Source of the DNA: Gemmatimonas sp.
Lineage (GTDB): Bacteria > Krumholzibacteriota > Krumholzibacteriia > LZORAL124-64-63
DNA length: 40,150 bases
NCBI GenBank assembly: GCA_013824755.1
Contig: PNOJ01000014.1
Coordinates: forward strand, 1-40,150
Direction: 5' to 3'
Notes under the pieces: model-generated
Told to the model about the DNA's origin: nothing
Database searches by the model: none
What the model saw: only the letters and a program-made list of their open reading frames with translations
Program-made: the position numbers and the translations under genes
Part shown: piece by piece, positions 1 through 18,336 of the stretch
Layout of the letters: each line of letters opens with the position of its first letter
How positions within the stretch are numbered: position 1 is the first letter of the stretch

Positions 1-1262
1 GCCCGCCACGCCGCCAGGTCGGCGCAGCCGGCGGCGCGCATCTCGTCGCCGAGGCGGCGCAGCATCCCGGACAGGCGGCCGTAGCCGCCGGGCTTCAGCA
101 GGTCGCTGCAGACGGTCACCGGCCCCAGCCCGAGCGCCACGGCTTCGGCCGCGTTGCCGCGCTCGATCCCGGCCGAGAACGACACCGGCACCTCGCCCCC
201 GGGCCGGCCGGCCAGGGCCAGGCGGCCGGGCAGGCGGGCGTCGAGCTCCGCGAGCAGGGTCGCGGCCAGCACGTGCAGCGGCGCTCCCGACAGGTAGGCC
301 CGTTCTCCCGGCAGACGGCCGCGGTCGTTGGCGACCACCAAGGTGTTGGTGAGCTTGACGCCGAAGCGCCTCCCCTGCGCGCGAGCGAAATCCGCCAGGC
401 GGGCGACGAGTTCCAGGGCGCGGTCCATGACCAGGTCCTCGGCGAAGGCCTGCGGCACCAGGGCCGCATCATGGTAGCCGAGCCGGTCGTGCAGGATCGC
501 CGCCACCGCGTCGGGGCCCAGCAGCGTGGGGTTCAGCTTCACCGTGACGTCCAGGCCGTGGCGGGTCATCAGATGGCGGACGATATCCTCGATCTCCCCC
601 GGCGGGCAGCCGTGGAAGGTGCTGAGGGTGGCGCCGGTGCAGAGGCGCGCCGGCACCTCGACGTCGCGCAGGGCGGCGAGCGGCCGCGGGACCTCGCGGC
701 GCTGCGCGTCCACGGCCGTGCGCGCGTCGCCGAGGCGGTCCAGGAACGCGGCCATCGGCGCGCTGCGCACGCCAGCGAGGTCGTAGCCGCACGACAGCTC
801 GAAGACGTGGCCGCCGGGCTCGCCCACCGCCGCGCGCACCGGCTCCCAGGCGCGCAGGACCGCGATCAGCAGCGCGGCCTTGGCGTATTCGCTCAAGGAC
901 TCGTCCAGGCGCAGCTCCTGGCTCCACTCGACGTTGTAGCCCTCGGCGGCCATGTCGATGCAGGGGCGCGGGATCTCCAGCTCGTCGAGGACCTGGACGG
1001 TCTTCAGTTCCAGCGTGCGCGCCCCGGCCAGCCAGCTCAGCGCCAGATTCTGCGCCAGCTGCGTGTGCGGGCCGGCGGCCGGTCCCAGGGGCGTGCCGAC
1101 GACGTGGCCGCCGACCGTGTCGGCGAGGTCGACGCCGTCGGGCGGCCGGTGCCACTTGCCGGCCGGCAGGTCGAAGATCGCGCCGCGGGCGTCCAGTTCG
1201 ACGACGGCGCGCCCGAGCAGGTCGCGCAGCGGCCAGGGTGTCAGGGCGGGGGGGCGGTTCAT
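1..1262 (-). CDS. ygfK: YgfK-type putative selenate reductase, N-terminal part (cut by window edge)
   Basis: About 420 N-terminal residues are visible; the C-terminal part lies beyond base 1. I translated this strand directly. The segment GTPLGPAAGPHTQLAQNL, then LELKTVQVLD, EGYNVEWSQELR, STFHGCPPGEIE, VKLNPTLLGP and FGVKLTNT match the dihydroorotate-dehydrogenase-like TIM barrel at the start of YgfK, a protein of about 1000 residues whose later parts bind Fe-S clusters and flavin. YgfK is annotated as a putative selenate reductase subunit, and its physiological substrate is not firmly established. The ATG overlaps the stop of the upstream phosphatase as ATGA (1262-1259), which indicates translational coupling. 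Family assignment is firm; function is by family annotation only. The C-terminal redox domains cannot be checked here. Confidence 0.85.
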   Translation of the reverse strand, partial: MNRPPALTPWPLRDLLGRAVVELDARGAIFDLPAGKWHRPPDGVDLADTVGGHVVGTPLGPAAGPHTQLAQNLALSWLAGARTLELKTVQVLDELEIPRPCIDMAAEGYNVEWSQELRLDESLSEYAKAALLIAVLRAWEPVRAAVGEPGGHVFELSCGYDLAGVRSAPMAAFLDRLGDARTAVDAQRREVPRPLAALRDVEVPARLCTGATLSTFHGCPPGEIEDIVRHLMTRHGLDVTVKLNPTLLGPDAVAAILHDRLGYHDAALVPQAFAEDLVMDRALELVARLADFARAQGRRFGVKLTNTLVVANDRGRLPGERAYLSGAPLHVLAATLLAELDARLPGRLALAGRPGGEVPVSFSAGIERGNAAEAVALGLGPVTVCSDLLKPGGYGRLSGMLRRLGDEMRAAGCADLAAWR

Positions 1263-1972
1263 GGGCGGGCCTTCCGGGGTGCGGGCGCGGGCCGGGCCGC
1301 GAAGTGGTCGGCGAGTTCGGCGAAGGTTTCCAACAGGAGGTCCGGGCCGGCGGCGAGCAGACGGGCCCGCGCCGTGAGGCCGAACGCGCAGCCGACGGCG
1401 GTGCAGCCCAGAGCGCGCGCCGCCAGCACGTCGTTGGTCCCGTCCCCGACCATGGCCGTGTCGCCCGGCGCGACGTCCAGCCCGGTCAGGCAGAGCGCCA
1501 GCGCCTCGGGGTCGGGCTTGCGGCGCGCCACGTCGTCGCCGCACACCACGCGCCGGAAGGCGCCGTCGACGTGCAGGCCCGCCAGCACCTTCTCGGCGAA
1601 GCGGCGGGACTTGTTGGTGGCGACCATGAGCGGGAAGCCGGAGAAACGGCGCAGCGTCTCCAACACGCCCGGGTAGAGGCGGCTGTGGTCCAGGCAGTGG
1701 CGGTCGTGGTGGTCGAGGAAGATCGCGAGGCCCTCGGCGACGCGGTCGGCGGCGGACGGGCCGTCCAGGTCGGCGAGCGCGCGCTCGACGAGCTTGCCCA
1801 CGCCGTCGCCCACGTAGGACACGACGACCCGTTCCGGGAGTTCCGGCAACCCGAAGCGCGCGCGCACGTGGTTGGTCGAGACGGTCAGGTCGCGTCCCGA
1901 GTCGACCAGGGTGCCGTCGAGGTCGAAGATGAAGGCCTCGGCCCGGCGACGTCGGCGCGGTTGGCGGCTCAT
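1259..1972 (-). CDS. gph: HAD-family phosphatase, phosphoglycolate phosphatase-like
   Basis: 237 residues. All HAD motifs are present: DLDGT (nucleophile D17, acid D19), ATNK for motif II, RRKPDP for motif III and VGDGTND for motif IV. An alpha-helical cap sits between motifs I and II, as in phosphoglycolate phosphatase Gph, which hydrolyses 2-phosphoglycolate in the cytosol. Length is typical. The start is supported by AGGGGAGGA a few bases upstream and by a promoter with a very short leader. The gene is first in a two-gene unit and overlaps the YgfK-type gene by four bases. Substrate is inferred from similarity; related HAD enzymes such as pyrophosphatase PpaX look much the same. Confidence 0.85.
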   Translation of the reverse strand: MSRQPRRRRRAEAFIFDLDGTLVDSGRDLTVSTNHVRARFGLPELPERVVVSYVGDGVGKLVERALADLDGPSAADRVAEGLAIFLDHHDRHCLDHSRLYPGVLETLRRFSGFPLMVATNKSRRFAEKVLAGLHVDGAFRRVVCGDDVARRKPDPEALALCLTGLDVAPGDTAMVGDGTNDVLAARALGCTAVGCAFGLTARARLLAAGPDLLLETFAELADHFAARPAPAPRKARP

Positions 1973-1989
1973 GCGTTCCTCCCCTCGCG

Positions 1990-2018
1990 ATCATAGGCGG
2001 CACGCGGCGGGGGCGCAA
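1990..2018 (-). promoter_or_regulatory. Promoter of the gph-ygfK unit
   Basis: On the minus strand, -35 TTGCGC (2018-2013), a 17 bp spacer and -10 TATGAT (1995-1990). The expected transcription start is only about 10 bases before the SD sequence. Confidence 0.6.
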
Positions 2019-2052
2019 GCGCGCGTCACGCCGGCCCGGGGCCGTTCCCCGC

Positions 2053-2082
2053 TTGTGCGGGCCGCCCTTCCCCGCCTATACT
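2053..2082 (+). promoter_or_regulatory. Promoter of the SPOR-protein gene
   Basis: -35-like TTGTGC (2053-2058), an 18 bp spacer and -10 TATACT (2077-2082), about 40 bases before the ATG. Confidence 0.55.
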
Positions 2083-2121
2083 CGCGCCTTGTCCGTTTCC
2101 CGAACGACCGGAGGACGCGCG

Positions 2122-2910
2122 ATGTTCGACGACCGGCGCCGCGACGACGACGAGGACGACGGGGACCTGGAGTTCCTCAACCGGGCCGACGAACGTGCGG
2201 AAGAGGCGCGGGCCGGGCACATCGCCGACCTGCCCGGCGACGACGCGGCGGACGCCGGCGAGGACTGGCGCGCGCCGGCGCCGGTGACCGCCCTGCGCCC
2301 GCGCCGCGCGCGTAGCGGCCGCGGCCTGGTGGCCGCGGTGGCGGTGGCGCTGGTGGCCATGCTGGCCTTCGTCTTCTGGCCCCGCGGCGGCTTCGAGCTG
2401 CCCCCGCCGGTGGGCGAGCAGACCTCGGTCGTCACCACCGATTCGCCGGGCCTCCCCTACGACCCGCAGCGGCCCGTCAGCGGGGACGTCGATCTGGCGC
2501 GGGAAGCGCCCGCGGTGGTGCCGGAGTCGCCCGGCGGGCGCGCGGCGGCGGCCGACGCGGCCCGCACGGGCACGACCGCCGAGGCGGCCGGCGACGAGGC
2601 GGTCGGCGTCCAGACTGACGGGAACGCTGCGGATGCCGCGGCCCCCGGCTCGGCGGTCGTGCCGCCGGGCGCTTCCGGGACCTGGGCGATCCAGCTCGGC
2701 GCCTTCGGCCAGCCGGCCAACGCCGAGGAGCTGGCGACCCGGCTGCGTCGGGCCGGGCACCGCATCGAGACCGAGACCGTCAGGACCGCCGGCGGCGCCT
2801 CGCTCACGCGCGTCCGGGTGGCCTGGTTCCGCACCGAAACCGAAGCCTCCGCCTGGGCCGCCGCCCACGCGGCCGTCCTGGGCCGGGACCTCAAGCTCAC
2901 GAGCCGTTGA
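2122..2910 (+). CDS. SPOR-domain inner-membrane protein
   Basis: 262 residues. A very acidic N-terminus (many Asp/Glu in residues 1-50) is followed by one membrane segment at about 69-87. Next comes a long low-complexity Ala/Gly/Pro linker, then a C-terminal SPOR domain from about 187 (WAIQLGAFGQPANAEELATR, VRVAWFRTETEA). SPOR domains bind denuded peptidoglycan at the division septum, so the topology is cytoplasmic N-terminus, one TM and periplasmic SPOR domain. The start at 2122 is chosen for the SD CGGAGGA seven bases upstream; an in-frame ATG at 2053 lies upstream of the likely transcription start. FabH follows after 34 bases with its own SD and may be co-transcribed. Similar to FtsN/DedD in architecture only. 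Confidence 0.8.
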   Translation: MFDDRRRDDDEDDGDLEFLNRADERAEEARAGHIADLPGDDAADAGEDWRAPAPVTALRPRRARSGRGLVAAVAVALVAMLAFVFWPRGGFELPPPVGEQTSVVTTDSPGLPYDPQRPVSGDVDLAREAPAVVPESPGGRAAAADAARTGTTAEAAGDEAVGVQTDGNAADAAAPGSAVVPPGASGTWAIQLGAFGQPANAEELATRLRRAGHRIETETVRTAGGASLTRVRVAWFRTETEASAWAAAHAAVLGRDLKLTSR

Positions 2911-2944
2911 CGAGCTCGCGCACCGCTGAACCGGGAGGCCGGAT

Positions 2945-3937
2945 GTGACCTGCGCCATGGTGATCGGGACGGGACACTGCGTCCCCGAGCGCGTCGTGAC
3001 CAACCGCGACCTCATGCAGTGGATGGACACCAGCGACGAGTGGATCGTCGAGCGCACGGGGATCCGCGAACGGCGCTGGATCTCCCCCGGCACGACGCTC
3101 GACGACCTCGCCGCCGGCGCCGCGCGCATGGCGCTGCAGGACGCGGGCCTCGCGGCCGAGGAGCTCGACCTGATCATCTGCGCGACCCTCAACCCCGACT
3201 GCTTCTTTCCTGGCAACGGCGTCCTGCTGCAGCACGCGCTGGGCGCGCGCACGGTCGGCGCCCTGGACATCCGCAACCAGTGCACCGGCTTCGTCTACGG
3301 CCTGGCCACGGCTGCGGCCCACATCAAAGCCGGGCTCGCGCGCACCGTGCTGGTCGTCGGCACGGAGATCCACTCCACCTCGCTGGACCTCTCCGACCGC
3401 GGCCGCGACATCGCCGTGCTGTTCGGCGACGGGGCCGGCGCCGCCGTCCTGCGCGCCGGCGAAGGCGGGGGCGACGTGCTGGCCAGCGTCCTGCACAGCC
3501 AGGGGGAATTCGCCCGCGAGCTGTGGTGCGAGCTGCCGTCGGGCAGCCAGCCCGGCCGCATCACGGCCGCGCAGATCGCCGAGGGTCGCCACTACCCGCA
3601 CATGAACGGCCGCGCCGTCTACACGCACGCCGTGCGGCGCTTCTGCGAGGCGATCCAGGAGGTGCTCGACGCGGGAGGGGTCGCGAAGCAGGACGTCAAG
3701 CTGGTCATCCCCCACCAGGCCAACCTGCGCATCACCGAGGCGGTGACCAAGCGCTTCGATCTGGCGCCGGAGCAGGTCTTCAGCAACATCCAGCGCTACG
3801 GCAACACGACGGCGGCGTCGATCCCCATCGCGCTGAGCGAGGCGGTGCGGGAGGGCAGGCTCGCCCGCGGCGACCTGCTGGTGCTGGTGGCGTTCGGCTC
3901 GGGGTTCACCTGGGGCGCCAACCTGATCCGCTGGTGA
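2945..3937 (+). CDS. fabH: 3-oxoacyl-ACP synthase III (KAS III)
   Basis: 330 residues, normal for FabH, which condenses acetyl-CoA (or another acyl-CoA) with malonyl-ACP to start fatty acid synthesis. The catalytic triad is visible: Cys113 in NQCTGFVYG, His257 in IPHQAN and Asn287 in YGNTTAASIP. The active-site context NQCTGF differs from the common ACSGF, so primer preference may differ. The start is taken as GTG 2945, six bases after GGGAGG; an ATG at 2957 is the alternative. It is not inside a fab cluster here. It ends seven bases from the convergent rex gene, with no terminator seen between them. Confidence 0.92.
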   Translation: MTCAMVIGTGHCVPERVVTNRDLMQWMDTSDEWIVERTGIRERRWISPGTTLDDLAAGAARMALQDAGLAAEELDLIICATLNPDCFFPGNGVLLQHALGARTVGALDIRNQCTGFVYGLATAAAHIKAGLARTVLVVGTEIHSTSLDLSDRGRDIAVLFGDGAGAAVLRAGEGGGDVLASVLHSQGEFARELWCELPSGSQPGRITAAQIAEGRHYPHMNGRAVYTHAVRRFCEAIQEVLDAGGVAKQDVKLVIPHQANLRITEAVTKRFDLAPEQVFSNIQRYGNTTAASIPIALSEAVREGRLARGDLLVLVAFGSGFTWGANLIRW

Positions 3938-3944
3938 GCGGCGG

Positions 3945-4619
3945 CTAGTCCTGCCTGAGCTCGTCGTTCTGGCCGATGCGCTTGGTCTTGAAGCTCAGGC
4001 ACATCAGCCCCACCGCGAGGCGCTCGTTGCGCACGATGACCTGCGGCGGGGTGCGGATGTCGGTCGGGGTGAAGTTCCAGACGCCGACCACACCGGCGGC
4101 GATCATCTGGTTGGCGACGTCCTGCGCGACGTTCACCGGCACGGTCAGCACGCCGACCTTGATGCCGTGCTCCTTCACGAACCCGGGCATCTCCGACAGC
4201 GGCCGGATCGGCACGCCCCGGATCTCCAGGCCCACCAGTTTCGGGTCCACGTCGAAGATCCCGCGCAGGGGGAAGCCCAACCGCTCGAAATTGCGGTAGT
4301 TGGCCAGGCCCTGGCCGAGATGGCCGGCGCCCACGATGATCATGGGGACCGGGATGTCGACCCCGATGATCTCCTCGAGGGCCGGCACCAGCTTGTCCAC
4401 CTGGTAGGGGCGCCCCGGTTTGCTGAAACCGCCGAAGTAATGAAAATCGTGCCGCAGCTGGCTGGCCTTGATGTCCAGCGAGGTCGCGAGTTGTCGCGAC
4501 GAGACTTCCTTGACACCCGCCTGCTGCAGCAGGATGAGCTTGTCCAGGTACAGGGGCAGGCGCAGGATCGTGGCGTCCGGGACGCGGAATTTCTTGCCCT
4601 TGTTGTTGACGACCCTCAC
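3945..4619 (-). CDS. rex: Redox-sensing transcriptional repressor Rex
   Basis: 224 residues. An N-terminal winged helix (about 13-65, ILRLPLYLDKL and SSRQLATSLDIKASQLRHDF, then YFGGFSKPG) leads into a Rossmann NAD(H)-binding domain (GAGHLGQGL at 97-105, FDVDPKLVG at 122-130). A C-terminal dimerisation region follows (RLAVGLMCLSFK). Rex senses the NADH/NAD ratio and represses fermentative or respiratory genes when NADH is low. I place the start at GTG 4619, seven bases after AAGGGAG; a GTG at 4664 would add 15 residues with no good SD. The gene is divergent from gatE and has its own promoter with a candidate Rex operator at the start point, suggesting autoregulation. Confidence 0.9.
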   Translation of the reverse strand: MRVVNNKGKKFRVPDATILRLPLYLDKLILLQQAGVKEVSSRQLATSLDIKASQLRHDFHYFGGFSKPGRPYQVDKLVPALEEIIGVDIPVPMIIVGAGHLGQGLANYRNFERLGFPLRGIFDVDPKLVGLEIRGVPIRPLSEMPGFVKEHGIKVGVLTVPVNVAQDVANQMIAAGVVGVWNFTPTDIRTPPQVIVRNERLAVGLMCLSFKTKRIGQNDELRQD

Positions 4620-4672
4620 CTGGATCTCCCTTCGCCGATCGCCCCGCAACCCCGCCAGGAACACAACCGTTC

Positions 4673-4690
4673 TTGTTAGGTCTTTGACAG
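4673..4690. promoter_or_regulatory. Candidate Rex operator
   Basis: TTGTTAGGTCTTTGACAG resembles the Rex-box form TTGTTAAnnnnTTAACAA with several mismatches, and it sits on the expected start point of rex. A second isolated perfect half-site, TTGTGAA on the minus strand (4749-4743), lies upstream of the rex -35 box. Position is persuasive; sequence match is only partial. Confidence 0.35.
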
Positions 4691-4694
4691 GACC

Positions 4695-4724
4695 AATCTA
4701 CTCCCACCCCGGGATGCGCGTCAA
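4695..4724 (-). promoter_or_regulatory. Promoter of rex
   Basis: On the minus strand, -35 TTGACG (4724-4719), an 18 bp spacer and -10 TAGATT (4700-4695), followed by a leader of about 70 bases. Confidence 0.55.
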
Positions 4725-4774
4725 GATGCTGGTTGACGAGATTTCACAACCGGCCTGCCGATGGGAAAACAACG

Positions 4775-4803
4775 TTGGCCCCCCGCCGGGCGCCCCCTAT
4801 ATT
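4775..4803 (+). promoter_or_regulatory. Promoter of gatE-gatD
   Basis: TTGGCC (4775-4780), a 17 bp spacer and TATATT (4798-4803), about 45 bases before the gatE ATG. Bacterial in form. Confidence 0.5.
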
Positions 4804-4848
4804 GGTCCCGCGCCGCACGTTCCGTCACTCCAGCCGCACAGGTCGCGC

Positions 4849-6765
4849 ATGAACGACGTCTCCCGCTACGATCCCCTGCAGGGCGCTCCGCTGCCCGTCC
4901 TGGGAGCCTGGGGCGAGGACGAGTACGCGTCGCTCGGGCTGATGTCCGGGCTCGAGGTGCACCAGCAGCTGCTGACCGCGAACAAGCTCTTCTGCCGCTG
5001 CCCCGCCGGCCGGTACGCCACGCGGCACCACGCGGAGATCCTGCGCCACATGCGCCCGACCCTCAGCGAGATGGGGGACTACGACGGCACCGCGCTGATG
5101 GAGTTCAAGACCCGCAAGAACATCACCTACCTGCTGAACGACGAGACGGTCTGCACCTACGAGATGGACGACGCCCCCCCCTTCGAGATGAATCCCGAGG
5201 CGCTGGACATCGCGGTGCGGGTCTCGCTGATGCTCGGCCTGCAGGTGGTCGACGAGATCCACATCGCCCGCAAGCAGTACCTGGACGGCAGCATCCCGAC
5301 GGGCTTCCAGCGCACGGCGATCATCGGCGTCCAGGGCGCGGTCCCCCACCGCGGCCGGCGCATCGGGATCCGCCAGCTGTCCATCGAGGAGGATTCCTGC
5401 CGCGAGGTCAGCGACCGCGGCCACTCCCGCGTCTACCGCACCGACCGCCTGGGCATGCCCCTGATCGAGACGGTCACTGACCCCGACATGCACACCCCCT
5501 GGGACGTGGCCGCCGTCTGCGACGCGCTGCGCCGCCTGGCACGGGCCAGCGGCCTGGTGCGCACGGGCGTCGGCGCGGCGCGGCAGGACGTGAACGTGAG
5601 CATCCGCGGCGGTTCCCGCGTCGAGATCAAGGGCGTCCCGAGCATCAAGCGCATCCCGCGGCTGGTCCACAACGAGGCCCTGCGCCAGCGCAGCCTGCTG
5701 GCCATCCGCGACGTCCTGCGCGAGCGCGGCGTCACCGCGGCTTCGCTGACCGACGCCTCGCGCGACGTCACGTCCGTCGTCCACGCCGCCGAAGGCGGCT
5801 ACCTGCGCGACGCGGTCGCCGGCGGCGCCCGCGTCGTGGCCGTGCCCCTGCCGGGTTTCGAGGGCCTCGTCTCCACGCCGACCCAGCCCCACACCCGCTT
5901 TCTGAAGGAATTCTCCGACCGCGTGCGCGTGGTCGCCTGCCTCGACGCGATGCCGAACGTCATCTGCTCGACGAGCGAGGTCCCGACGCTCTCGTCGGCC
6001 GAGTGGGGCCGCATCGAGCGCGCCTGCGGCGTCGGGCGCGACACGCCGATCATGGTGGTCTGGGGCGACGAGCGGGACGTGTGCACCGCGGCGGGCGAGA
6101 TCCTGCTGCGGGCCCGCGAGGCCTGCGAGGGCGTGCCCGAGGAGACCCGCCAGGCCCTGGACGACGACACCACCGGTTTCGAGCGCGTCCTGCCCGGCCC
6201 CAGCCGCATGTACCCCGACACCGACCTGCCGCCGGTGGTGCTGGGCGCGGAAAGGTTGGCGCGCCTGGCGACCGACCTGCCGCCGCCGCCCTGGGAGCGT
6301 CGCGAACGGCTGCGGCGCGACGGGGTCGGCGAGGACCTGGCCGACCGGCTGGCCCGGCACCCGGCGTACGCGCTCTACGCGCACCTGCAGCCGCGGCTCG
6401 GCGCCGGCCCGCTGAACGCGACCGGCCTGGCCTCGCTGCTGCTGGACCGCGACCTGCCGCGGCCGTCGAGCCTGGCCGCGGCGGGCGACTGGTGGGAACG
6501 CGTCCTGGACGGGCTGTGCGCGGGCCGCGTGCTGCCCGAGGGGATCTGGTGGGCGGACGGCGAGCCGGCGGACGCGCTGCCGCCGGCGGCGGCCCGCGCG
6601 GCCTTCGACGCGGCCTTCGCGGCGGCCGTGCAGGAGCTGCCGGCGGTCCTGCCGGCGGACGGTGGGCCGCGGCTGCGCGCGATCATGGGCCGGGTGATGC
6701 CCGCCCTGCGCGGCCGGGTGTCGGGACGCCAGGCGGCCGCCTGGGCCGAGGAGGCGACGTCGTGA
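4849..6765 (+). CDS. gatE: Glu-tRNA(Gln) amidotransferase subunit E (archaeal type)
   Basis: 638 residues, the usual GatE length and much longer than bacterial GatB (about 480). GatE is the tRNA-binding kinase/transamidase subunit that converts Glu-tRNA(Gln) to Gln-tRNA(Gln) with ammonia from GatD. Visible in order: the GatB/GatE cradle with GLEVHQQL (34-41), KLFCRCP (46-52, C49 and C51), ARQDVNVSIRGG (244-255) and VEIKGV (258-263); a GAD (AspRS-like) insertion at about 310-430 (PHTRFLKEFSDRV, EGVPEETR); PGPSRMYPDTDLPP at 449-462; and a helical tail ending in AIMGRVMPALRGRV. The GAD insertion and the PSRMYPDTD context separate it from GatB. Start 4849 has a weak SD (AGGT). It overlaps gatD by four bases (GTGA). 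Its presence in a bacterium is unusual. Confidence 0.93.
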   Translation: MNDVSRYDPLQGAPLPVLGAWGEDEYASLGLMSGLEVHQQLLTANKLFCRCPAGRYATRHHAEILRHMRPTLSEMGDYDGTALMEFKTRKNITYLLNDETVCTYEMDDAPPFEMNPEALDIAVRVSLMLGLQVVDEIHIARKQYLDGSIPTGFQRTAIIGVQGAVPHRGRRIGIRQLSIEEDSCREVSDRGHSRVYRTDRLGMPLIETVTDPDMHTPWDVAAVCDALRRLARASGLVRTGVGAARQDVNVSIRGGSRVEIKGVPSIKRIPRLVHNEALRQRSLLAIRDVLRERGVTAASLTDASRDVTSVVHAAEGGYLRDAVAGGARVVAVPLPGFEGLVSTPTQPHTRFLKEFSDRVRVVACLDAMPNVICSTSEVPTLSSAEWGRIERACGVGRDTPIMVVWGDERDVCTAAGEILLRAREACEGVPEETRQALDDDTTGFERVLPGPSRMYPDTDLPPVVLGAERLARLATDLPPPPWERRERLRRDGVGEDLADRLARHPAYALYAHLQPRLGAGPLNATGLASLLLDRDLPRPSSLAAAGDWWERVLDGLCAGRVLPEGIWWADGEPADALPPAAARAAFDAAFAAAVQELPAVLPADGGPRLRAIMGRVMPALRGRVSGRQAAAWAEEATS

Positions 6766-8156
6766 GCGGGAACGCCGGCGAGGACTACAAGGGCTACCGC
6801 GACCCCGCGCTGTCGGTGCTCCGGCGGTTCGAGGCGCTGGTGTGGAGCGACGTCACCGTCCGCACCGACCGCGGCGAGTTCCGCGGACTCATCCTGCCGC
6901 GCAACGAGATGGCCGACCCGGAGCACGTCGTGCTGAAGATGTCGACCGGCTACAACATCGGCCTGCACGTCGGCGGCGTGCAGGAAATCACGGTCCACGG
7001 GCGCAAGGTCGCCAACTACAAGATCCCGGAGAAGGCCTTCCCCTACGCCGAGGGCAAGCCCCGGGTCAAGCTGCTGGGCACCGGCGGCACGATCGCCTCG
7101 CGGCTCGACTACCGCACCGGCGCCGTGATCCCCGCCTTCTCGCCCGGCGAGCTGTACGGCTCGGTGCCCGAATTGGCGGACGTCTGCAACCTGGAGACCG
7201 AGAAGCTCTACGGCGTGTTCAGCGAGAACATGGGCCCCGAGCAGTGGATCGGCCTGGCCGAGGCCATCGGGCGCGAGATCGCCGCCGGCGTCGACGGCAT
7301 CGTGGTGGGCCACGGCACCGACACCATGCACCACACCGCGGCCATCCTCTCCTTCATGGTCCAGGACCCGCCGGTGCCGATCGTCATGGTCGGCAGCCAG
7401 CGCTCGAGCGACCGTCCCAGCTCCGACGCCGCCATCAACCTCATGAACGCCACGCGGACGGCCGCGACCAGCGACCTCGCCGAGGTGATGGTCTGCATGT
7501 TCGGCCCCACGAGCGACCAGTACGGCCTGCTGCACCAGGGCACGCGCGTGCGCAAGATGCACTCCTCGTACCGCTCGACCTTCCGCACCCTGAGCGACGT
7601 CCCCCTGGGCAAGGTCGACCAGGGCGGCGTCACGCCGTTCCGCAACGACTACCGCCGCCGCCGCGCCGACCGCGACGTCGCGATCAAGGCCGTCTTCGAC
7701 GACCGGGTCTCGCTGGTCTACTACTACCCGGGCATGAAGCCGGACGTCATCGACAGCCTGGTCGACCACGGCTACAAGGGGATCGTCATCGCGGGCACGG
7801 GCCTGGGCCACGTCAACCGCCCCCTGTACCCCGCGCTGGAGCGGGCGCACAAGGCGGGCGTCTCGATGTTCATGACCGTGCAGACGCTCTGGGGCTTCGT
7901 GCAGATGTACGTGTACGAGACCGGGCGCGAGATCATGGAGCTGGGCGTCGTGCCCGCGGCCAACATGCTGCCCGAGGTGGCCTACATGAAGCTGGGCTGG
8001 GCGCTGGGCCAGACGCAGGACCCCGCCGAGGTCGCCCGCATCATGCTGACGCCGATCGCGCGCGACATCACCGAGCGGGAGCCCTACAACGGCTACCTCG
8101 TGTACCAGGGCGGCATCCCCGAGGTCGACCAGTTCCTGAGCGAGCACTGGAAGTAG
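6762..8156 (+). CDS. gatD: Glu-tRNA(Gln) amidotransferase subunit D (archaeal type)
   Basis: 464 residues. An N-terminal beta-barrel-like domain (about 1-95, with the extension found in GatD but not in plain asparaginases) precedes an L-asparaginase-type amidase. Catalytic residues are all present: Thr110 in TGGTIAS, Thr186 and Asp187 in GHGTDTMHHTA, and Lys265 in RVRKMHSS. GatD releases ammonia from glutamine or asparagine and passes it to GatE. RKMHSS and the N-terminal domain argue for GatD rather than AnsA/AnsB. The GTG start at 6762 overlaps the gatE stop (GTGA) and has GAGGAGG upstream, so translation is coupled and the two products are likely made in equal amounts. Confidence 0.93.
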   Translation: MSGNAGEDYKGYRDPALSVLRRFEALVWSDVTVRTDRGEFRGLILPRNEMADPEHVVLKMSTGYNIGLHVGGVQEITVHGRKVANYKIPEKAFPYAEGKPRVKLLGTGGTIASRLDYRTGAVIPAFSPGELYGSVPELADVCNLETEKLYGVFSENMGPEQWIGLAEAIGREIAAGVDGIVVGHGTDTMHHTAAILSFMVQDPPVPIVMVGSQRSSDRPSSDAAINLMNATRTAATSDLAEVMVCMFGPTSDQYGLLHQGTRVRKMHSSYRSTFRTLSDVPLGKVDQGGVTPFRNDYRRRRADRDVAIKAVFDDRVSLVYYYPGMKPDVIDSLVDHGYKGIVIAGTGLGHVNRPLYPALERAHKAGVSMFMTVQTLWGFVQMYVYETGREIMELGVVPAANMLPEVAYMKLGWALGQTQDPAEVARIMLTPIARDITEREPYNGYLVYQGGIPEVDQFLSEHWK

Positions 8157-8168
8157 CGGCGGCCCGCG

Positions 8169-9569
8169 TCACTCGTGCGGCATCCGCTCGCCCGTGCTCG
8201 AGAAGAACTTCTGCACCGGGTAGCGCGACAGGTTGCTGACGCGGCTGGTGTAGACGCAGGCGACGTCGCGGATCTGGGCGCCGAAGCGGCTGACCGCCCG
8301 GCCCTCGCGGAAGATCGAGCCCCACCAGGGGTTGTAGGCCGCGGCGATCCGCTTCTGCAACTGGGCCCGCCGTCCCAGGCTGACCTGGATGCGGTCCTGC
8401 AGCTCCTGCACGACCGCGGGATCGTGGTCGGGCAGCGACAGCAGGTGGTCGCGCTCCAGCCCCAGGTCCTCCAGCGAATCCTCGATCTCCTCGAGGCCGG
8501 CCATCGCCCCGCGCAGCGGCTCCGACGCGAGGATCTCCTCCTCGACCTCCGGCACGATCATGGCGGTGCGCCAGCCGACCGACTTCTTGCTGCGCAGGAT
8601 GTCGCCGTAGGTGTGGTCGCCGAAGTACAGGATCGCGTCGCCGATCGCGCCGAGCTTGGACTCCAGGTAGAACGCATCGCCGCCGGTGAAGCAGTGCCCC
8701 CGGCGGTTCGGCAGGTGCGGCACCGTGTCGACGGGGACGCGCTCGCCCTTGCCCTTGGGCAGGAAGAAGCCCGGCTTGCGCGCGGTGCAGATGACCAGGT
8801 CGAAGAGGTCGTCCCAGGGGCCGTCCTCCCCGTCGAGGATGTAGTTCATGACGGCGCCGGTGTAGTCGGGCTCGGAGTTCGTGAGCAGGAACAGCTGCTT
8901 GCCCGCCGCGCGGAAGCGGCGCAGCGTCGGCGCCAGCAGGGGGTCGCGCACGAAGTAGCGGGGCAGGTCGGCCATGATGCGGCGCTTGAGCGAGCCGTTG
9001 CGGTGGATGGTGTCGATGGCGTCGCGGATGTCGTCGAACAACGTCTTGTAGCTCGGGCGCAGCAGCCCGGGCTGCCCGTCCTTCAAGGCCACCAGCGCCG
9101 AGTAGAGCGAGCCCTCCGGCAGGTCGAACAGCGTGTCGACGACGCGGTAGCGGTTCGGGCTCAGACGGATGCGGCCCCGCTTGTAGGCCTCCCGCCGCTC
9201 GACCTTCGACAGCAGCCGCCCGCCGTGGCGGACGCGCGCCACGTAACCGTAGGCGTCCACCTTGAGCAGGTTGCCCAGGCGGCGGTCGACGATCAGGCCG
9301 CGGGTGACGGCGGTGCGGTCGTACGCCACCTCGCGCAGGCTCTCGGGGTACCCCTTGGTCTCGACGAGCAGCGCGACGGCCATCTCGAAGCAGAGCTGTT
9401 CGAAGACGTGGGGGTCGTAGAGGGCGAGCGTGTGGTCCATGTCGAAGCCGATGGCCGCGATCGAGGCCAGGCGCAGGTTGCGGTGCGTGTGGACGCGCAG
9501 TTGGCGCGGCGGCGGATCGCCGCGCAGGCCGTCGGCATCCGGTTCGGACGTGACGTGGTGGTGGGGCAT
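8169..9569 (-). CDS. HAD-superfamily 5'-nucleotidase (IG / cN-II-like)
   Basis: 466 residues. The N-terminal motif GFDMDHTLALYD (nucleophile D43, acid D45) and the late motif YFGDHTYGDILRSKK (D318, D323) are diagnostic of the HAD-IG family related to cytosolic purine 5'-nucleotidase II. LLTNSEPDYT (229-237) is motif II and a long cap lies between. Such enzymes dephosphorylate IMP/GMP-type nucleotides in the cytosol. The start at 9569 has GGAG nine bases upstream, and the gene follows the glycosyltransferase by 16 bases in one operon. A larger open frame runs further upstream but is the shadow of that gene. The C-terminal third is rich in charged helices. Exact substrate unknown. Confidence 0.85.
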   Translation of the reverse strand: MPHHHVTSEPDADGLRGDPPPRQLRVHTHRNLRLASIAAIGFDMDHTLALYDPHVFEQLCFEMAVALLVETKGYPESLREVAYDRTAVTRGLIVDRRLGNLLKVDAYGYVARVRHGGRLLSKVERREAYKRGRIRLSPNRYRVVDTLFDLPEGSLYSALVALKDGQPGLLRPSYKTLFDDIRDAIDTIHRNGSLKRRIMADLPRYFVRDPLLAPTLRRFRAAGKQLFLLTNSEPDYTGAVMNYILDGEDGPWDDLFDLVICTARKPGFFLPKGKGERVPVDTVPHLPNRRGHCFTGGDAFYLESKLGAIGDAILYFGDHTYGDILRSKKSVGWRTAMIVPEVEEEILASEPLRGAMAGLEEIEDSLEDLGLERDHLLSLPDHDPAVVQELQDRIQVSLGRRAQLQKRIAAAYNPWWGSIFREGRAVSRFGAQIRDVACVYTSRVSNLSRYPVQKFFSSTGERMPHE

Positions 9570-9585
9570 CGTTTCTCCGGGGCGC

Positions 9586-10989
9586 CTAGGTGGTCTGCAG
9601 GCGGCGCGGGAGCATCTCGTCCAGCCAGTCGCTCGCGTCGCGCAGGCCGACGAATTCGGGGAAGAGGGTCTCGATCTTCGCGCGCCAGCTCTTGGCGTTG
9701 TCGCGGAAACCCAGTTCCTCCAGGACCTGCCCGCCCCTGAGCCAGGCCGACAGGTTCCGTTCGTCGGTGGTGACCGCCCGCAGGTAGTAGTCCAGGGCCC
9801 GCCGGCCATTCCCCCGCAGCCGGTCGCACTCGGCCTTGCCGAGCCAGGCGTGGGAGTACAGCGGGGCCAGGTCCAGGGCCCGGTCGAAGCGGCGCTCCGC
9901 CGCGTCGGGGTTCCCGTCGAGCAGGTCCAGCAGGCCAAGGTAACGCCACGGGTACAGGTCGCGCCAGCGTTCATCCGCGTCCGGCGCCGCGCCGGCCGAG
10001 GCCAGGCAGACCTCGAGGTCGCGCGTCGCCAGCTTGCGCAGGCTGGAGGCCGCGACCAGGGTGAGTCCGGCGTCGTCGCCGCGGGCCAGGTGGCGGACCG
10101 CCGCCACGGCGCGGCGGAACCGCAGCTCGGGGCGGTCGGGGTAGATCTCCATCGCGTCGCGCACGACGTCCAGCGCGGCGGCGGTCTCCAGCTGCGCGAT
10201 CTGCGCGGCGCCGAGCAGGCCCGCGAGGTCGGGCCCGTAGGCCAGCGCCGCCGCGGCTTCCGGCGCCATGCCGCGCACCGTCCCCCACGCCCGATCCAGC
10301 TGCCGCACGGTCTTGCCCAGGCCCGCGACCGGCAGCACCTCGTCCTCGAGACGGGTCAGGGTCTCGGTCGCCAGGCAGTAGGCGAAGTAGGGCTCGTAGG
10401 GGTATTCGCGGGAGGCCTCGCGCAGCAGCCGGCGGTTGCGCTCGCCGCGATTCGCGGCCCGGTCGGGGCCGCCGTCGTGGATCAGGGCGAGCTGGGAGCC
10501 CAGGATCGCGAGCCCGCGGGCGGTCGCCCAGTTCTCCAGGGCGATCTCCACCGTCTCGTGGACGGGGTAGCAGTAGCGCACATAGGGGTGGTTGCGGAAC
10601 AGCCGCACCTGGGTCGTCGATTCCTCGCCGCGCTCCTGCCCGCCGGCAAGGACCGCCACCCGGTAGCCGGCGGCCTCCGGCTCCGACAGCAGGCGCTGCA
10701 GCTCGACCGGACGCACCGGCTGCAGGCGCTCGTCGGCGTCCAGCACCAGGATCCAATCGCAGCGGGCTTCGGCCAGCACGGCGTTGCGCGCCGCGGCGAA
10801 GTCATCGTCCCACGGCACGTCGACCACGCGGGCCCCGTAGCCCTCGGCGATCAGACGCGTGTTGTCGGACGAGCCGGTGTCGCCGACGACGATCTCGTCG
10901 ACCACCGCCAGGGCGGACTTGATCGTCTGCCCGATGGTCGCTTCCTCGTCCTTGGCGATCATGCACAACGTGACGGTTTTACGTTTCAT
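9586..10989 (-). CDS. Family 2 glycosyltransferase with C-terminal TPR-like repeats
   Basis: 467 residues. The GT-A domain starts at once (TVTLCMIAKDEEATIGQTIKSAL, DEIVVGDTGSSDNT) and carries the metal-binding DAD at 84-86 in ILVLDADERL. From about residue 200 the protein is helical and repeat-like (RFDRALDLAPLYSHAWLGKAE, DYYLRAVTTDERNLSAW), as in TPR-containing GT2 enzymes that modify proteins or cell-surface glycans. No signal peptide or membrane segment is seen, so it is probably cytosolic. The ATG lies at 10989 with a weak SD. It is the first gene of a two-gene unit with the HAD nucleotidase. Donor and acceptor sugars cannot be read from the sequence. Confidence 0.85.
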   Translation of the reverse strand: MKRKTVTLCMIAKDEEATIGQTIKSALAVVDEIVVGDTGSSDNTRLIAEGYGARVVDVPWDDDFAAARNAVLAEARCDWILVLDADERLQPVRPVELQRLLSEPEAAGYRVAVLAGGQERGEESTTQVRLFRNHPYVRYCYPVHETVEIALENWATARGLAILGSQLALIHDGGPDRAANRGERNRRLLREASREYPYEPYFAYCLATETLTRLEDEVLPVAGLGKTVRQLDRAWGTVRGMAPEAAAALAYGPDLAGLLGAAQIAQLETAAALDVVRDAMEIYPDRPELRFRRAVAAVRHLARGDDAGLTLVAASSLRKLATRDLEVCLASAGAAPDADERWRDLYPWRYLGLLDLLDGNPDAAERRFDRALDLAPLYSHAWLGKAECDRLRGNGRRALDYYLRAVTTDERNLSAWLRGGQVLEELGFRDNAKSWRAKIETLFPEFVGLRDASDWLDEMLPRRLQTT

Positions 10990-11093
10990 TTACGGGCCGC
11001 ACCTGATCGTGATGATGGTTCAAGCCGCTCCCTCGCGCCCGGCGCTCCCTCGACGATGCTATCGGCCGGCGGCGGCCGCGGTTTAACCCGCTG

Positions 11094-11122
11094 TTGCCAG
11101 AAAGGCGGATCTTCCGCATCAT
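11094..11122 (+). promoter_or_regulatory. Possible promoter of the SpoU-DUF116-UbiA unit
   Basis: TTGCCA (11094-11099), a 17 bp spacer and CATCAT (11117-11122); the -10 matches the consensus at four of six positions. Confidence 0.35.
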
Positions 11123-11179
11123 GCCCGGCAACGGGCCGCCGGACGGCCCCAGCAGACCCAAGGCCCCCGGGGACCCCTC

Positions 11180-11728
11180 ATGCGCTTCAGCGACGACCCC
11201 TTCGCCCGACCCGCCGACCGGCTGGACCGCGCCTCGCTGGTCCTGCGGGACCGGATGCCCGTCTCCGCCCTGCTCGACGGCATCCGCAGCGCCGGCAACG
11301 TGGGCTCGATGTTCCGCACCGCCGACGCTGCCAACCTCGGCGGGCTCTACCTCTGCGGGATGACCGCCACCCCCCCGCGTCCCGACATCGAGAAGACGGC
11401 TCTCGGCGCCACCGAGACCGTCCCCTGGACCTACCGGCAGGACCCCGCCGCCGCGGTCGCCGACCTGCGGGCGCGCGGCGTCCAGGTCGTGGCCCTGGAA
11501 CAGGCGCCCGACGCCGCGCCCTTCGACGACTTCGCGTACCGCTTCCCGGTCTGCTTCGTGGTCGGGCACGAGGTCCAGGGCGTCGGGCCCGCGACGCTGG
11601 CGGCCGTCGACGCCTGCGTGGAGATCCCGATGTCCGGCGCGAAGAAGTCCCTGAACGTCGCCGTGAGCTTCGGCGTGCTGGCCTTCCAGCTGCGTCGCGC
11701 CTGGCTGGCCGCCGGGAGTCCGCGGTGA
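11180..11728 (+). CDS. TrmH/SpoU-family RNA 2'-O-methyltransferase
   Basis: 182 residues, the single-domain SPOUT form. The three SpoU motifs are clear: NVGSMFRTADAANLGGLYL (motif 1), VVGHEVQGV (motif 2) and IPMSGAKKSLNVAVSFGVLAF (motif 3), which form the trefoil-knot AdoMet site. It methylates a ribose 2'-OH in tRNA or rRNA; the target is not predictable because there is no extra RNA-binding domain. The ATG at 11180 follows GGGGA. The next gene overlaps its stop by four bases (GTGA), so the three genes from here to 13246 form one coupled unit. Confidence 0.88.
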   Translation: MRFSDDPFARPADRLDRASLVLRDRMPVSALLDGIRSAGNVGSMFRTADAANLGGLYLCGMTATPPRPDIEKTALGATETVPWTYRQDPAAAVADLRARGVQVVALEQAPDAAPFDDFAYRFPVCFVVGHEVQGVGPATLAAVDACVEIPMSGAKKSLNVAVSFGVLAFQLRRAWLAAGSPR

Positions 11729-12306
11729 GCCCCGCCCCTTACCGCTCCCCCTGGCGTCGCCGCGTCTTCGTGCTGGCCGTGACGGCGGCCCGCTCCCTGC
11801 TGACGCGGGCCGGCCGGTCGGACGAGCCCCTGGTCCGCCGCCTCGTGGCGGCCAACAACCGCCGCGTCGCGCGCCACCTCGCGGTCCACGGCGCCGCGAC
11901 CGTGCTGCTGATCCTGCCGCGCTGCGTCAAACGGGGCTGCTGCAGGATCGACAACGGCGGCTCGCTCTCCGCTTGCCTCGGCTGCGACAGCTGCGACCTG
12001 GGCGAGCTCGCACGCATCGCCGACCGGCACCGGGTCGAGGCGCTGGTCGCCTTCCGCAGCCACGTCGCCTTCGCCCTGGCCCGCGAGCGCCGACCCGACC
12101 TGATCATCGCCACCGCCTGCGAGGACCGCCTGGTCAAGGCCCTGCGCAGCGTGCCGGAGATCCCGGCCCTGCTCGCGCCGCTGACCGGCATGGAGCGCCA
12201 GTGCGTCAACGCCTCGTTCGAACCCGCGTGGTTCGCGGCGCAGCTGCGCCTGGCGACGGCGGCGAGGGAGGCGAGCCATGACGCGCGCGCGGCGACTCGG
12301 GCGTAG
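11725..12306 (+). CDS. DUF116 cysteine-rich protein
   Basis: 193 residues from GTG 11725 (GGGAG just upstream). After a basic N-terminus with one hydrophobic stretch comes a dense cysteine cluster, LPRCVKRGCC then ACLGCDSCDLGEL (C67, C72, C73, C84, C87, C90). Further on are ATACEDRLVKAL (C132) and a late Cys160. This pattern is the DUF116 family, whose function is unknown; the cysteines suggest a metal or Fe-S site, which is inference. It overlaps the SpoU gene by four bases and the UbiA gene by 29 bases, so it is translated in step with both. Confidence 0.75.
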   Translation: MSPAPYRSPWRRRVFVLAVTAARSLLTRAGRSDEPLVRRLVAANNRRVARHLAVHGAATVLLILPRCVKRGCCRIDNGGSLSACLGCDSCDLGELARIADRHRVEALVAFRSHVAFALARERRPDLIIATACEDRLVKALRSVPEIPALLAPLTGMERQCVNASFEPAWFAAQLRLATAAREASHDARAATRA

Positions 12307-13246
12307 GCTGCTGGGCCCCTCCTTCGACCACCTGCTCTTCCTGCGCCCCCGCCAGTGGCCCATCCTGACCGCGCAGCTCGCCGTCGGGCTGCTCGCGGCC
12401 CCGGCTCTCCGCGACGCGATCTTCTCGCGCCGGGCGCTGCCGGAACCGGCTGCCGCGACGGCCGTGCGTCCGGACGTCCTGCTGTGGGCCTGGCTGGCCT
12501 GGGTCCTCTGCCTCAACGGCGGGACCCTCGCCTTCAACAGCGCCCACGACCGCGACGTGGACGACATCGCCTACCTGCGCGCGCCGCCGCCGCCGCCGCC
12601 CCGGCTGGCTGTGTTCGCCCTGCTGCTGATGGCGGCGGGCCTGCTCCCCGCGCTGCTGGTGTCGCCGCGCTTCGCGGCGGTGACCGCCGCCTGCGTGCTG
12701 CTGTCGGTCGCGTACTCGCACCCCGCGACGCGCTGGAAGGGCGTGCCGGGCCTTGATCTCGCGGTGAACGCGGTGGGGTACGGGGCGGGAACCACGCTGG
12801 CGGGACTGCTGGCCGGCCGGGCGGCGGCCGGACGGCCCGACGCCTGGCCCGACGGACCGGGCTGGCTGTTGACGGGCGGCTTCGCCCTGCTGTTCGGCTC
12901 GTTCTACCCGATGACCCAGCTCTACCAGATCGACGCCGACCGCACCCGCGGCGACCGCACCCTGGCCACCGCCGTGGGCGCGCCGCGGTCGCTGGAGCTG
13001 GCCCTGCTGCTGGCCGTCGGCGCCGCCGCGCTCCTCTTGGCCGGTGCCGATCCCCGGACCGTGCCGAGGCTCATCCTGGGCCTGACGCTGGCGATGTGGG
13101 GCCTGGCGGCGGCGGCGTGGCGGCAGCGAACGCCGCGGCTGACTTCCCGTCAGCACGAGACCCGCATGTACGCGGCGCTGTCGCTGTGGGCGCTGATCGA
13201 CGCGGCGGTCCTGCTGGGATACTACTTCCCGCCGTGGACGCCCTAG
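12278..13246 (+). CDS. UbiA-family prenyltransferase
   Basis: 322 residues with about eight or nine hydrophobic membrane segments. Both aspartate-rich motifs are present: NSAHDRDVDD (87-96, the NxxxDxxxD type) and DADRTRGD (219-226). UbiA enzymes transfer a prenyl chain from a polyprenyl diphosphate to an aromatic or other acceptor in the inner membrane, for example in quinone, heme O or chlorophyll synthesis. The acceptor here is unknown and no quinone genes are adjacent. The start at 12278 has GGGAGG eight bases upstream, inside the DUF116 gene. Oddity: six consecutive prolines at 103-108, just after the first Asp motif, encoded by a CCG/CCC repeat. Confidence 0.82.
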   Translation: MTRARRLGRRLLGPSFDHLLFLRPRQWPILTAQLAVGLLAAPALRDAIFSRRALPEPAAATAVRPDVLLWAWLAWVLCLNGGTLAFNSAHDRDVDDIAYLRAPPPPPPRLAVFALLLMAAGLLPALLVSPRFAAVTAACVLLSVAYSHPATRWKGVPGLDLAVNAVGYGAGTTLAGLLAGRAAAGRPDAWPDGPGWLLTGGFALLFGSFYPMTQLYQIDADRTRGDRTLATAVGAPRSLELALLLAVGAAALLLAGADPRTVPRLILGLTLAMWGLAAAAWRQRTPRLTSRQHETRMYAALSLWALIDAAVLLGYYFPPWTP

Positions 13247-13250
13247 GGCC

Positions 13251-14345
13251 TCAGAACTGGGCGCGCCAGCGGCGGTCCAGCACGCCCCCGGGCTGCACGC
13301 CCAGGGCTTCGAACTCCCCGAGCACGCGGTTGATCAGGCGGGCCTTGTCGGCCAGGGGCAGGAATGCGCTCTTGAAGCCGTCGAGCAGGATCTTGGTGAC
13401 CTGCTCCACGCTCAGGGCGTAGTGGGCCACGGCCAGCTCCAGCTCGTGGGTCATCGTGGTGCCCGACACCAGCCGGTTGTCCGTGTTCAGCGTGACCCGC
13501 AACCCCTCGTCCAGGAAGCGCTTGATGGGGTGGTCCGACCAGTGGGCGATCGCCCGCGTCTGCATGTTGCTCGCCAGGCAGACCTCGACCGCGATGCGCC
13601 GGTCGTTGACCCACTGCATCAGGTCGGGATCGCGGGCCAGGTTGGTGCCGTGCCCGATCCGGTTGGCGCCGCAGTAGTGGATGGCCTGGTGGATGCTCGC
13701 GGGACCGAACGCCTCGCCCGCGTGCACGGTGACCGGCAGGTTGTGGTTGAGCACCACGTAGAAGGCCTGCAGGTGGTCCTTGGCGGGAAAATCCTTCTCG
13801 GCTCCCGCGAGGTCGAAGGCCACCACGCCCCGCCCCTTCCAGCGCACCGCCAGCTCCGCCAGCTCCACCGAAGAGGCGGGCGAGATGTGCCTGATCCCGC
13901 AGATGATCTGCCCGGTCACGATGCCGTAGCGCCGGCGCGCCCGGTCCAGGCCCCGCTGCACGGCGGCGACGATCTCGTCCAGGGTCAGTCCCCGGACCGT
14001 GTGCAGCATGGGCGAGTAGCGCACCTCCATGTAACGGATGTTCTCGCGATGCGCGTCCTCGGCCAGCTCGAAGGCGATCCGCTCGATGTCGCCGGCGTGC
14101 TGCATGAGCTGCAGGGTGATGTCGAAGACCTTCAGGTAGTCCTCCAGGCTCTCGCACTGCTCGCCCACCTCGCAGACCGCGCGCACGTCGTCGTCGTCGC
14201 GGAAGGCGAAGGGCAGGCCGTGGCGCGCCGTCAGCTCGCGGACCGTGGCCGGCCGCAGCGAACCGTCGAGGTGGACATGGAGGTCGGTTTTCGGGAGGGC
14301 GTGCAGGAGCTGGCGGGTGGTCCGATCGGTCACGTCCGTCGTCAT
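13251..14345 (-). CDS. add: Adenosine deaminase
   Basis: 364 residues. Zinc and catalytic motifs of adenosine deaminase are present in order: DLHVHLDGS (H23, H25), VHAGEAFG, IGHGTNLA and LNTDNRLVSGTTMTHE (metal-binding Asp). NTDNRLVSGTTM is the context of true adenosine deaminases rather than adenine deaminases. It hydrolyses adenosine to inosine and ammonia in the cytosol. The start at 14345 has GGGAG about ten bases upstream. It converges on the UbiA gene with a four-base gap. Together with ahcY nearby it would remove adenosine made by SAH hydrolysis, pulling that reversible reaction forward. The leader is long (about 215 bases) and holds a strong hairpin. Confidence 0.92.
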   Translation of the reverse strand: MTTDVTDRTTRQLLHALPKTDLHVHLDGSLRPATVRELTARHGLPFAFRDDDDVRAVCEVGEQCESLEDYLKVFDITLQLMQHAGDIERIAFELAEDAHRENIRYMEVRYSPMLHTVRGLTLDEIVAAVQRGLDRARRRYGIVTGQIICGIRHISPASSVELAELAVRWKGRGVVAFDLAGAEKDFPAKDHLQAFYVVLNHNLPVTVHAGEAFGPASIHQAIHYCGANRIGHGTNLARDPDLMQWVNDRRIAVEVCLASNMQTRAIAHWSDHPIKRFLDEGLRVTLNTDNRLVSGTTMTHELELAVAHYALSVEQVTKILLDGFKSAFLPLADKARLINRVLGEFEALGVQPGGVLDRRWRAQF

Positions 14346-14380
14346 CGTGGTGCTCCCGTCCAACGCCTGGAGTAGATAGC

Positions 14381-14419
14381 ATCCTGGGCCGGGGACCCCT
14401 TTGGGACCCGGCCCAGGAT
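14381..14419. repeat. Perfect 13 bp inverted repeat in the add leader
   Basis: ATCCTGGGCCGGG (14381-14393) and its exact complement (14407-14419) are separated by 13 bases. The hairpin ends 36 bases before the add start. No T-run follows on either strand, so it is not a simple intrinsic terminator; a role in mRNA structure or protein binding is open. Confidence 0.7.
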
Positions 14420-14564
14420 AGAAAGCGCCGATGCGGGCGATGGTCTCCAGGCCTGAAGGGCGACTCATTTCCCCAGGCACTGATGCCGGCCGCTCCGCAG
14501 CCACGAGTCAAGCTGCGTGGGACCGCACCGACCCTGTGCTGACAGGCTAGGCCTTCAGCGAATG

Positions 14565-14593
14565 ATGATACCCTGCCCCACCCCCAAAGGCAA
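14565..14593 (-). promoter_or_regulatory. Promoter reading toward add
   Basis: On the minus strand, -35 TTGCCT (14593-14588), a 17 bp spacer and -10 TATCAT (14570-14565). Transcripts would start near 14558, giving a leader of about 215 bases. Within it CTGAAGG near the 5' end can pair with CCTTCAG further on. Confidence 0.55.
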
Positions 14594-17190: not shown

Positions 17191-17209
17191 CGTCGTCCTC
17201 CTGTTCGGG

Positions 17210-18256: not shown

Positions 18257-18278
18257 GGTCTCCGCTCGCAGCCAATGA

Positions 18279-18294
18279 ATCGCTACATAACGAT
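18279..18294. promoter_or_regulatory. Palindromic operator candidate over the regulator-ahcY promoter
   Basis: ATCGCTACATAACGAT has arms ATCGnTA/TAnCGAT and extends outward by TG/CA after one mismatch, giving 8 of 11 paired positions over 22 bases (18276-18297). It covers the -10 box. Size and AT-rich centre suit an ArsR-type dimer. Confidence 0.6.
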
Positions 18295-18312: not shown

Positions 18313-18336
18313 CCCGCCAACCACGCAAGCCGAAGC

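Follow-up and report, generated by a model that had tools for sequence, protein, structure and literature searches.

The amidotransferase GatDE is placed in archaea only by reviews (PMC9499178, 2022; PMC8007984, 2021), and the archaeal enzyme is reported to read A1-U72 and the D-loop of tRNA-Gln (PMC9499178). Bacterial tRNA-Gln amidation depends on U1-A72 (PMC9976931), and a survey of 366 bacterial genomes relied solely on whether GatCAB was present to infer the function of GluRS and GlnRS (PMC3927822). In this study, a gatE-gatD pair was analyzed that lies in a stretch of 40,150 nucleotides of bacterial DNA, hereafter the window. An earlier note on this DNA had proposed that the pair encodes an archaeal-type GatDE. 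The closest solved structures are indeed those of archaeal GatDE, 1zq1 and 2d6f.

The gatE-gatD locus

The locus comprises the following features.

4849-6765, plus strand: gatE, 638 residues, ATG start at 4849; cradle, GAD-like insertion and helical/YqeY-like tail (TIGR00134, NF003107, 1zq1_C, 2d6f_C, AlphaFold/Foldseek)
6762-8156, plus strand: gatD, 464 residues, GTG start at 6762; GatD_N and type I asparaginase-like domain (TIGR02153, NF003217, Pfam)
5701-6123, plus strand: GAD-like insertion of GatE, residues about 285-425, limits approximate (1zq1_C alignment, predicted fold)
6319-6762, plus strand: divergent C-terminal tail of GatE, residues 491-638 (phmmer alignment to 1zq1_C)
4775-4803, plus strand: sigma-70-like match TTGGCC-17-TATATT upstream of gatE, 9/12 of the consensus, assigned by sequence match
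3945-4664, minus strand: rex, divergent neighbor of gatE (NF003995 over cut-off)

The two genes overlap by GTGA (6762-6765), both open reading frames are intact, and both products pass curated NCBIfam cut-offs. GatE scores 416 bits against TIGR00134 (cut-off 320) and 467 against NF003107 (456), and GatD scores 497 against TIGR02153 (324) and 499 against NF003217 (310). The Pfam domains found in the pair are GatD_N (PF18195), Asparaginase and GatB_N. GatD has all four catalytic residues, T110, T186, D187 and K265, and an alignment of 65 bacterial GatD sequences shows no variation at these positions other than a single gap. The completeness of both subunits, their coupling by GTGA and the four catalytic residues had been claimed in the earlier note and were all borne out. 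The same holds for the GAD insertion of GatE: the Pfam GAD model gives no match to GatE at E<=0.001, though the alignment to P. abyssi GatE (1zq1_C) passes through the GAD region and the predicted fold agrees. The AlphaFold model of GatE has a pLDDT of 86.7, and a Foldseek search with it returned 1zq1_C as the best match (E 3.7e-47), followed by 2d6f, by GatB chains and, weakly, by bacterial AspRS, which also has a GAD insertion (PMC4206432). Against the GatB models, GatE (P0001) reaches 65-128 bits where the cut-offs are 315-680 and thus falls outside GatCAB; no GatA profile match over cut-off was found in the window assembly (G000). Thirty-six GatE positions are common to bacterial GatE, archaeal GatE and GatB. 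The TIGR00134 match ends near profile position 486, and the tail beyond it was aligned to 1zq1_C by phmmer; in archaeal GatE the tail touches tRNA.

Four GatE cysteine residues, C49, C51, C102 and C184 (window 4993-5400), are invariant in 39 bacterial GatE and may form a putative metal site. Counterparts of C49, C51 and C102 exist in Methanothermobacter and Natrinema and not in P. abyssi, and C184 is Ala in the archaeal rows.

The locus is a bacterial one. As stated in the earlier note, the divergent neighbor encodes Rex, and both GC and GC3 of gatE and gatD agree with the adjacent genes, in line with its view that a transfer would not be recent. Its bacterial-style promoter is a candidate defined by consensus: the 9/12 match at 4775-4803 is one of two sigma-70-like sites in the region, compared with 0.2 in shuffled sequences. 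Positions 1-14626 of the window (14.6 kb) are collinear, at 90% DNA identity, with a locus of a same-genus genome (L001, matching G062), and the order rex-gatE-gatD is also kept in L004, L009, L011 and L013. A contig chimera with an archaeal fragment is ruled out by the collinearity with L001. By its sequence, the pair is GatDE of the archaeal type, complete and residing in a genuine bacterial genome.

Judged from dN/dS, gatE and gatD are under purifying selection. The ratio is 0.15-0.23 for GatD and 0.32-0.34 for GatE in comparisons with the genus and near relatives, and larger against the more distant L009; within GatE it is 0.65 for the GAD part, 0.50 for the tail and 0.30 for the first 490 residues, all values being limited by a dS that is rough in genes this GC-rich. 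Elsewhere in the window, an ArsR-type regulator is fused to a class I methyltransferase (17210-18391, minus strand), near S-adenosylhomocysteine hydrolase (15913-17232) and an adenosine deaminase family protein (13251-14504).

Distribution and phylogeny of bacterial GatDE

One scan yielded 245 related loci, with GatE-GatD relatives under at least 12 bacterial phylum labels. Among the best 80 of the 245 loci these labels are Krumholzibacteriota, Latescibacterota, Zixiibacteriota, Fermentibacterota, Ignavibacteriota, Myxococcota/Deltaproteobacteria, Edwardsbacteria, Acidobacteriota, Bacteroidota, Chlorobiota, Neomarinimicrobiota, Cloacimonadota, Gemmatimonadota and Planctomycetota. Nearly all loci come from metagenome bins, the titles and contents of which are fallible; L001 and L002, both of the same genus as the window organism, bear the titles Latescibacterota and Fibrobacter. 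In almost all loci of sufficient length gatD directly follows gatE (the order is inverted in L071, and L078 shows none).

Within the phylum of the window organism, GatE was found in 60 of 69 genomes, counting five contig-end fragments below cut-off, and in its family in 30 of 33, with G046, G054 and G058 lacking it. A second phylum, that of G092 (Bacteroidetes by title), was represented by a drawn sample of 297 genomes, of which 22 carry GatE. The system is therefore lineage-wide, as had been suggested, in that most genomes of the phylum have it, but it is not special to this lineage, because pairs occur under many phylum labels. Apart from gatE-gatD itself, no gene neighbor is common across phyla, save that in three loci a glnA or GlnA-like gene adjoins gatDE: glutamine synthetase in L015 (11440-12855) and L022 (6512-7957), and, in L026 (11363-12910), a GlnA-like gene that stays below cut-off. 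Glutamine synthetase beside gatDE is a weak hint toward glutamine metabolism.

Trees of GatE and GatD, which the earlier note had called for, place the pair outside GatB and outside ordinary asparaginases, so that membership in either is ruled out. When the GatE trees were rooted on GatB, the three archaeal sequences grouped together, with a support of 100/97 in the careful 39-row tree. The bacterial GatE clade has an SH-aLRT support of 93 in the quick 77-row tree and 65/92 in the careful tree, and because this support is only moderate the position of the root is not firm. In the GatD tree the bacterial sequences are separated as a single clade from archaeal GatD and the asparaginases with a support of 100, at a point where long branches meet. 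GatD is not an ordinary L-asparaginase: it contains PF18195, and two asparaginases fall outside the GatD rows of the tree. GatD identity is 67% among bacterial groups, 47% between bacteria and archaea and 58% among archaea; bacterial and archaeal GatE are 33-36% identical, and 12 GatE positions are fixed differently between the sampled rows of the two domains.

The archaeal references were three euryarchaeal ones, from Pyrococcus, Methanothermobacter and a frameshifted Natrinema sequence. A search for further archaeal GatDE gave none in the viral contigs scanned, and plasmids gave that one Natrinema GatE. It lies unannotated on a Natrinema thermotolerans plasmid (L171, 2911-4862), spread over two frames by either a sequencing error or pseudogene formation. 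The bacterial sequences are distinct from these three references; they may derive from an inter-domain transfer, including one that would nest them in an unsampled archaeal group. The GatDE pair is neither local nor recent.

Co-occurrence with GlnRS, AsnRS and GatCAB

The archaeal GatDE pathway goes with an absence of GlnRS. Of the genes that the earlier note had proposed to search for, gatA, gatB, glnS and gltX were covered. GlnRS was found over cut-off in 44 of the 60 GatE genomes of the phylum, including all three same-genus genomes, in 34 of 40 GatE genomes from many phylum labels and in 20 of 22 from the drawn second-phylum sample, that is, in most carriers. The GlnRS tree is family-coherent, with one family (f5) forming one clade and another (f1) two, so the co-residence of GlnRS and GatDE looks old. 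A lineage-wide replacement of GlnRS, also considered in the earlier note, is contradicted by these data, since GlnRS is complete in the same-genus genomes and occurs together with GatDE in most of the family.

In the window assembly (83.7% complete), no GlnRS, GatA or GatB was found over cut-off. A 4.6 kb glnS stretch of the same-genus G062 is missing from it together with its flanks. Given this loss and the incompleteness, an assembly gap is the simpler reading, and the absence of GlnRS is probably such a gap. Of the 69 phylum genomes, 62 have AsnRS over cut-off; the window assembly, unlike its relatives, has none that passes it. A need for GatDE in Asn-tRNA formation is ruled out by the AsnRS of these 62 genomes.

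Some amidotransferase, GatDE or GatCAB, is retained in 67 of the 69 phylum genomes. In a few genomes GatDE looks like the sole visible Gln-tRNA route. The best case is G013 (95% complete, 1% contamination), which has GatE and two GluRS, with no GlnRS, GatA or GatB over cut-off; G081, G087 and G096, under three other phylum labels and in assemblies that may be incomplete, carry GatE without GlnRS and GatB. The archaeal layout of GatDE and GatCAB without GlnRS occurs in G010, G023, G029 and G068. In a Phycisphaerales genome (G074, locus L015), GatDE and GatB are intact and the sole GlnRS-like match covers profile positions 230-523, below cut-off; this GlnRS may be truncated.

tRNA-Gln and GluRS

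A tRNA-Gln model was built, and tRNA-Gln was read from the window assembly, 17 class relatives and genomes of other labels; none was recovered for G081 and G092, and a few ARAGORN calls without encoded CCA, offset by 1-2 bases, were read by eye. Every fully readable tRNA-Gln has U1-A72, not the archaeal A1-U72. Of the tRNA(Gln) identity features recognized by GatDE, which the earlier note had suggested looking for, A1-U72 is thus absent. If tRNA-Gln is a substrate of bacterial GatDE, it must be recognized in another way than by the archaeal enzyme. Because A1-U72 belongs to the tRNA partner in archaea and not to the proteins, its absence concerns tRNA recognition and not family membership.

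In the family of the window organism, tRNA-Gln(CUG) has C3-G70 and A73 (L168/L170 in G000, L189, L190 and L200), whereas G3-C70 is found in the UUG isoacceptor and in the rest of the class. A division of labor by tRNA-Gln isoacceptor finds no support: the same CUG type occurs in G046, which lacks GatE, and genomes with and without GatE are alike elsewhere.

Two GluRS copies are usual in class genomes that lack GlnRS; the family of the window organism has one. The GluRS position aligning with Gly366 of T. elongatus GluRS, a residue tied to tRNA-Gln acceptance, is occupied by Arg in this family, and G013, G029 and G064 have Gln, Asn or Lys there in their second GluRS. Arg at this position is not confined to genomes with GlnRS, as three GatDE genomes lacking GlnRS (G087, G081 and G104) have it too. 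In L202 (G000:C41, 1590-5848), L203, L205, L208, L212 and L219, a GluRS gene is found close to tRNA-Gln(CUG), which is followed by tRNA-Glu(CUC). This linkage occurs in class relatives with and without GatE and might reflect co-expression.

Function of bacterial GatDE

We consider it probable, at roughly 0.6, that the pair encodes a functional heterodimer with Glu-tRNA(Gln) amidotransferase activity, which belongs to a bacterial GatDE branch and uses U1-A72 tRNA-Gln, usually as a second route beside GlnRS. By homology, GatD would free ammonia from Gln or Asn, the ammonia would pass from GatD to GatE, and GatE would activate the Glu of Glu-tRNA(Gln) and amidate it to Gln-tRNA(Gln), the likely substrate of the bacterial branch being bacterial tRNA-Gln with U1-A72. 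The few genomes without GlnRS or GatCAB have no visible route to Gln-tRNA(Gln) other than GatDE; in the majority, and probably in the window organism too, GatDE would act beside GlnRS as a second route or clear Glu-tRNA(Gln) made by GluRS. Catalysis, tRNA substrate and physiological role are what we infer from sequence comparison. Support for this reading comes from the family scores and domains, the invariant GatD residues and the 36 shared GatE positions, the fold match to 1zq1_C, the adjacency of gatE and gatD across phyla, purifying selection, and the carriers that lack GlnRS (G013, G081, G087 and G096). When GatE of genomes with and without GlnRS was compared, only two positions differed in make-up, both conservatively, and the lack of any further separating site favors one shared function. 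Several observations count against this reading. With GlnRS in most carriers, the product of GatDE is not obviously needed. The single GluRS of the family has Arg at a position presumably linked to tRNA-Gln rejection, and that Arg is also present in carriers without GlnRS. Finally, tRNA-Gln has U1-A72 and not the A1-U72 read by archaeal GatDE (PMC9499178).

The stable, family-wide co-residence with GlnRS, together with AsnRS in 62 of 69 genomes and an amidotransferase kept in 67 of 69, could instead mean that GatDE of GlnRS-bearing bacteria has been re-aimed at another aminoacyl-tRNA, at a non-translational substrate or at tRNA-bound Gln for metabolism. The faster evolution of the GAD and tail parts of GatE and the glutamine synthetase genes adjoining gatDE in L015 and L022, with the GlnA-like gene in L026, would fit. 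However, GatE shows no site signature of a shifted function, rows with and without GlnRS intermingle in the tree, and no conserved neighbor suggests another substrate, so we regard this as unlikely. We are less inclined still to see GatDE as a relic or a transitional state that became dispensable when GlnRS arrived later and is now being slowly lost. Its patchy absence in the family (G046, G054, G058) and its low prevalence in the second phylum (22/297) could be read in this way, but the genes are intact and constrained, 30 of 33 family genomes have them, and a family-coherent GlnRS implies a long co-residence that is hard to square with decay in many phyla. Least probable is that GatDE replaced GlnRS and GatCAB and is the sole source of Gln-tRNA(Gln) in the window organism. 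The window assembly does lack GlnRS, GatA and GatB matches, yet it is 83.7% complete, misses the whole 4.6 kb glnS stretch with its flanks, and also lacks the AsnRS that its relatives have over cut-off; all three same-genus genomes possess GlnRS.

More tentatively, and with less confidence than in the second-route amidotransferase, GatDE might be an ancient enzyme of bacteria and not a borrowed one: a widespread additional amidotransferase that reads U1-A72 tRNA and is kept for a task outside GlnRS and AsnRS, for example the removal of Glu-tRNA(Gln) or a tRNA-bound amidation that does not serve normal translation.

The existence of a broad GatDE branch in bacteria breaks the archaea-only view as well as pathway inference from GatCAB alone, and it has a direct bearing on whether GatDE was already present in the last universal common ancestor. 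An enzyme thought to replace the ordinary glutamine-charging enzyme usually sits beside GlnRS in bacteria; direct and archaeal-type indirect Gln-tRNA synthesis coexist there, which makes the reason for keeping both testable. A literature search, with subscription papers outside its reach, found no paper describing bacterial GatDE. NCBIfam models already label such proteins GatD and GatE, and the bacterial pair may have been noticed earlier elsewhere.

Comparison with known systems

The bacterial pair shares with archaeal GatDE (Pyrococcus abyssi 1zq1, Methanothermobacter thermautotrophicus 2d6f) its two subunits, domains, GatD catalytic residues, GatE active-site positions, predicted fold and passage of the curated family cut-offs by both genes. 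It differs in sequence (about 47% identity in GatD, 33-36% in GatE), in its separate branch with 12 fixed GatE differences, in its bacterial host, in a tRNA-Gln with U1-A72 instead of A1-U72, and in the GlnRS that usually accompanies it. The type I L-asparaginases have the same catalytic domain and catalytic residues as GatD; in contrast to them, GatD has GatD_N and scores far higher to the GatD models, and the asparaginases lie outside it in the tree.

To our knowledge, GatDE is known for Gln only, unlike the GatCAB of Deinococcus, Thermus and Bdellovibrio. The latter serves tRNA-dependent Asn formation with a non-discriminating AspRS, and it resembles the bacterial GatDE as an amidotransferase kept beside both GlnRS and AsnRS (PMC4206432). 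Bacterial GatCAB in general has the same overall reaction, which for GatDE would follow by homology, and acts on U1-A72 tRNAs; GatB and GatE have a common catalytic cradle and 36 positions. The two systems differ in that GatE has a GAD insertion and an asparaginase-type partner, whereas GatB has an amidase-type GatA and GatC, and GatE lies far outside GatB in the tree.
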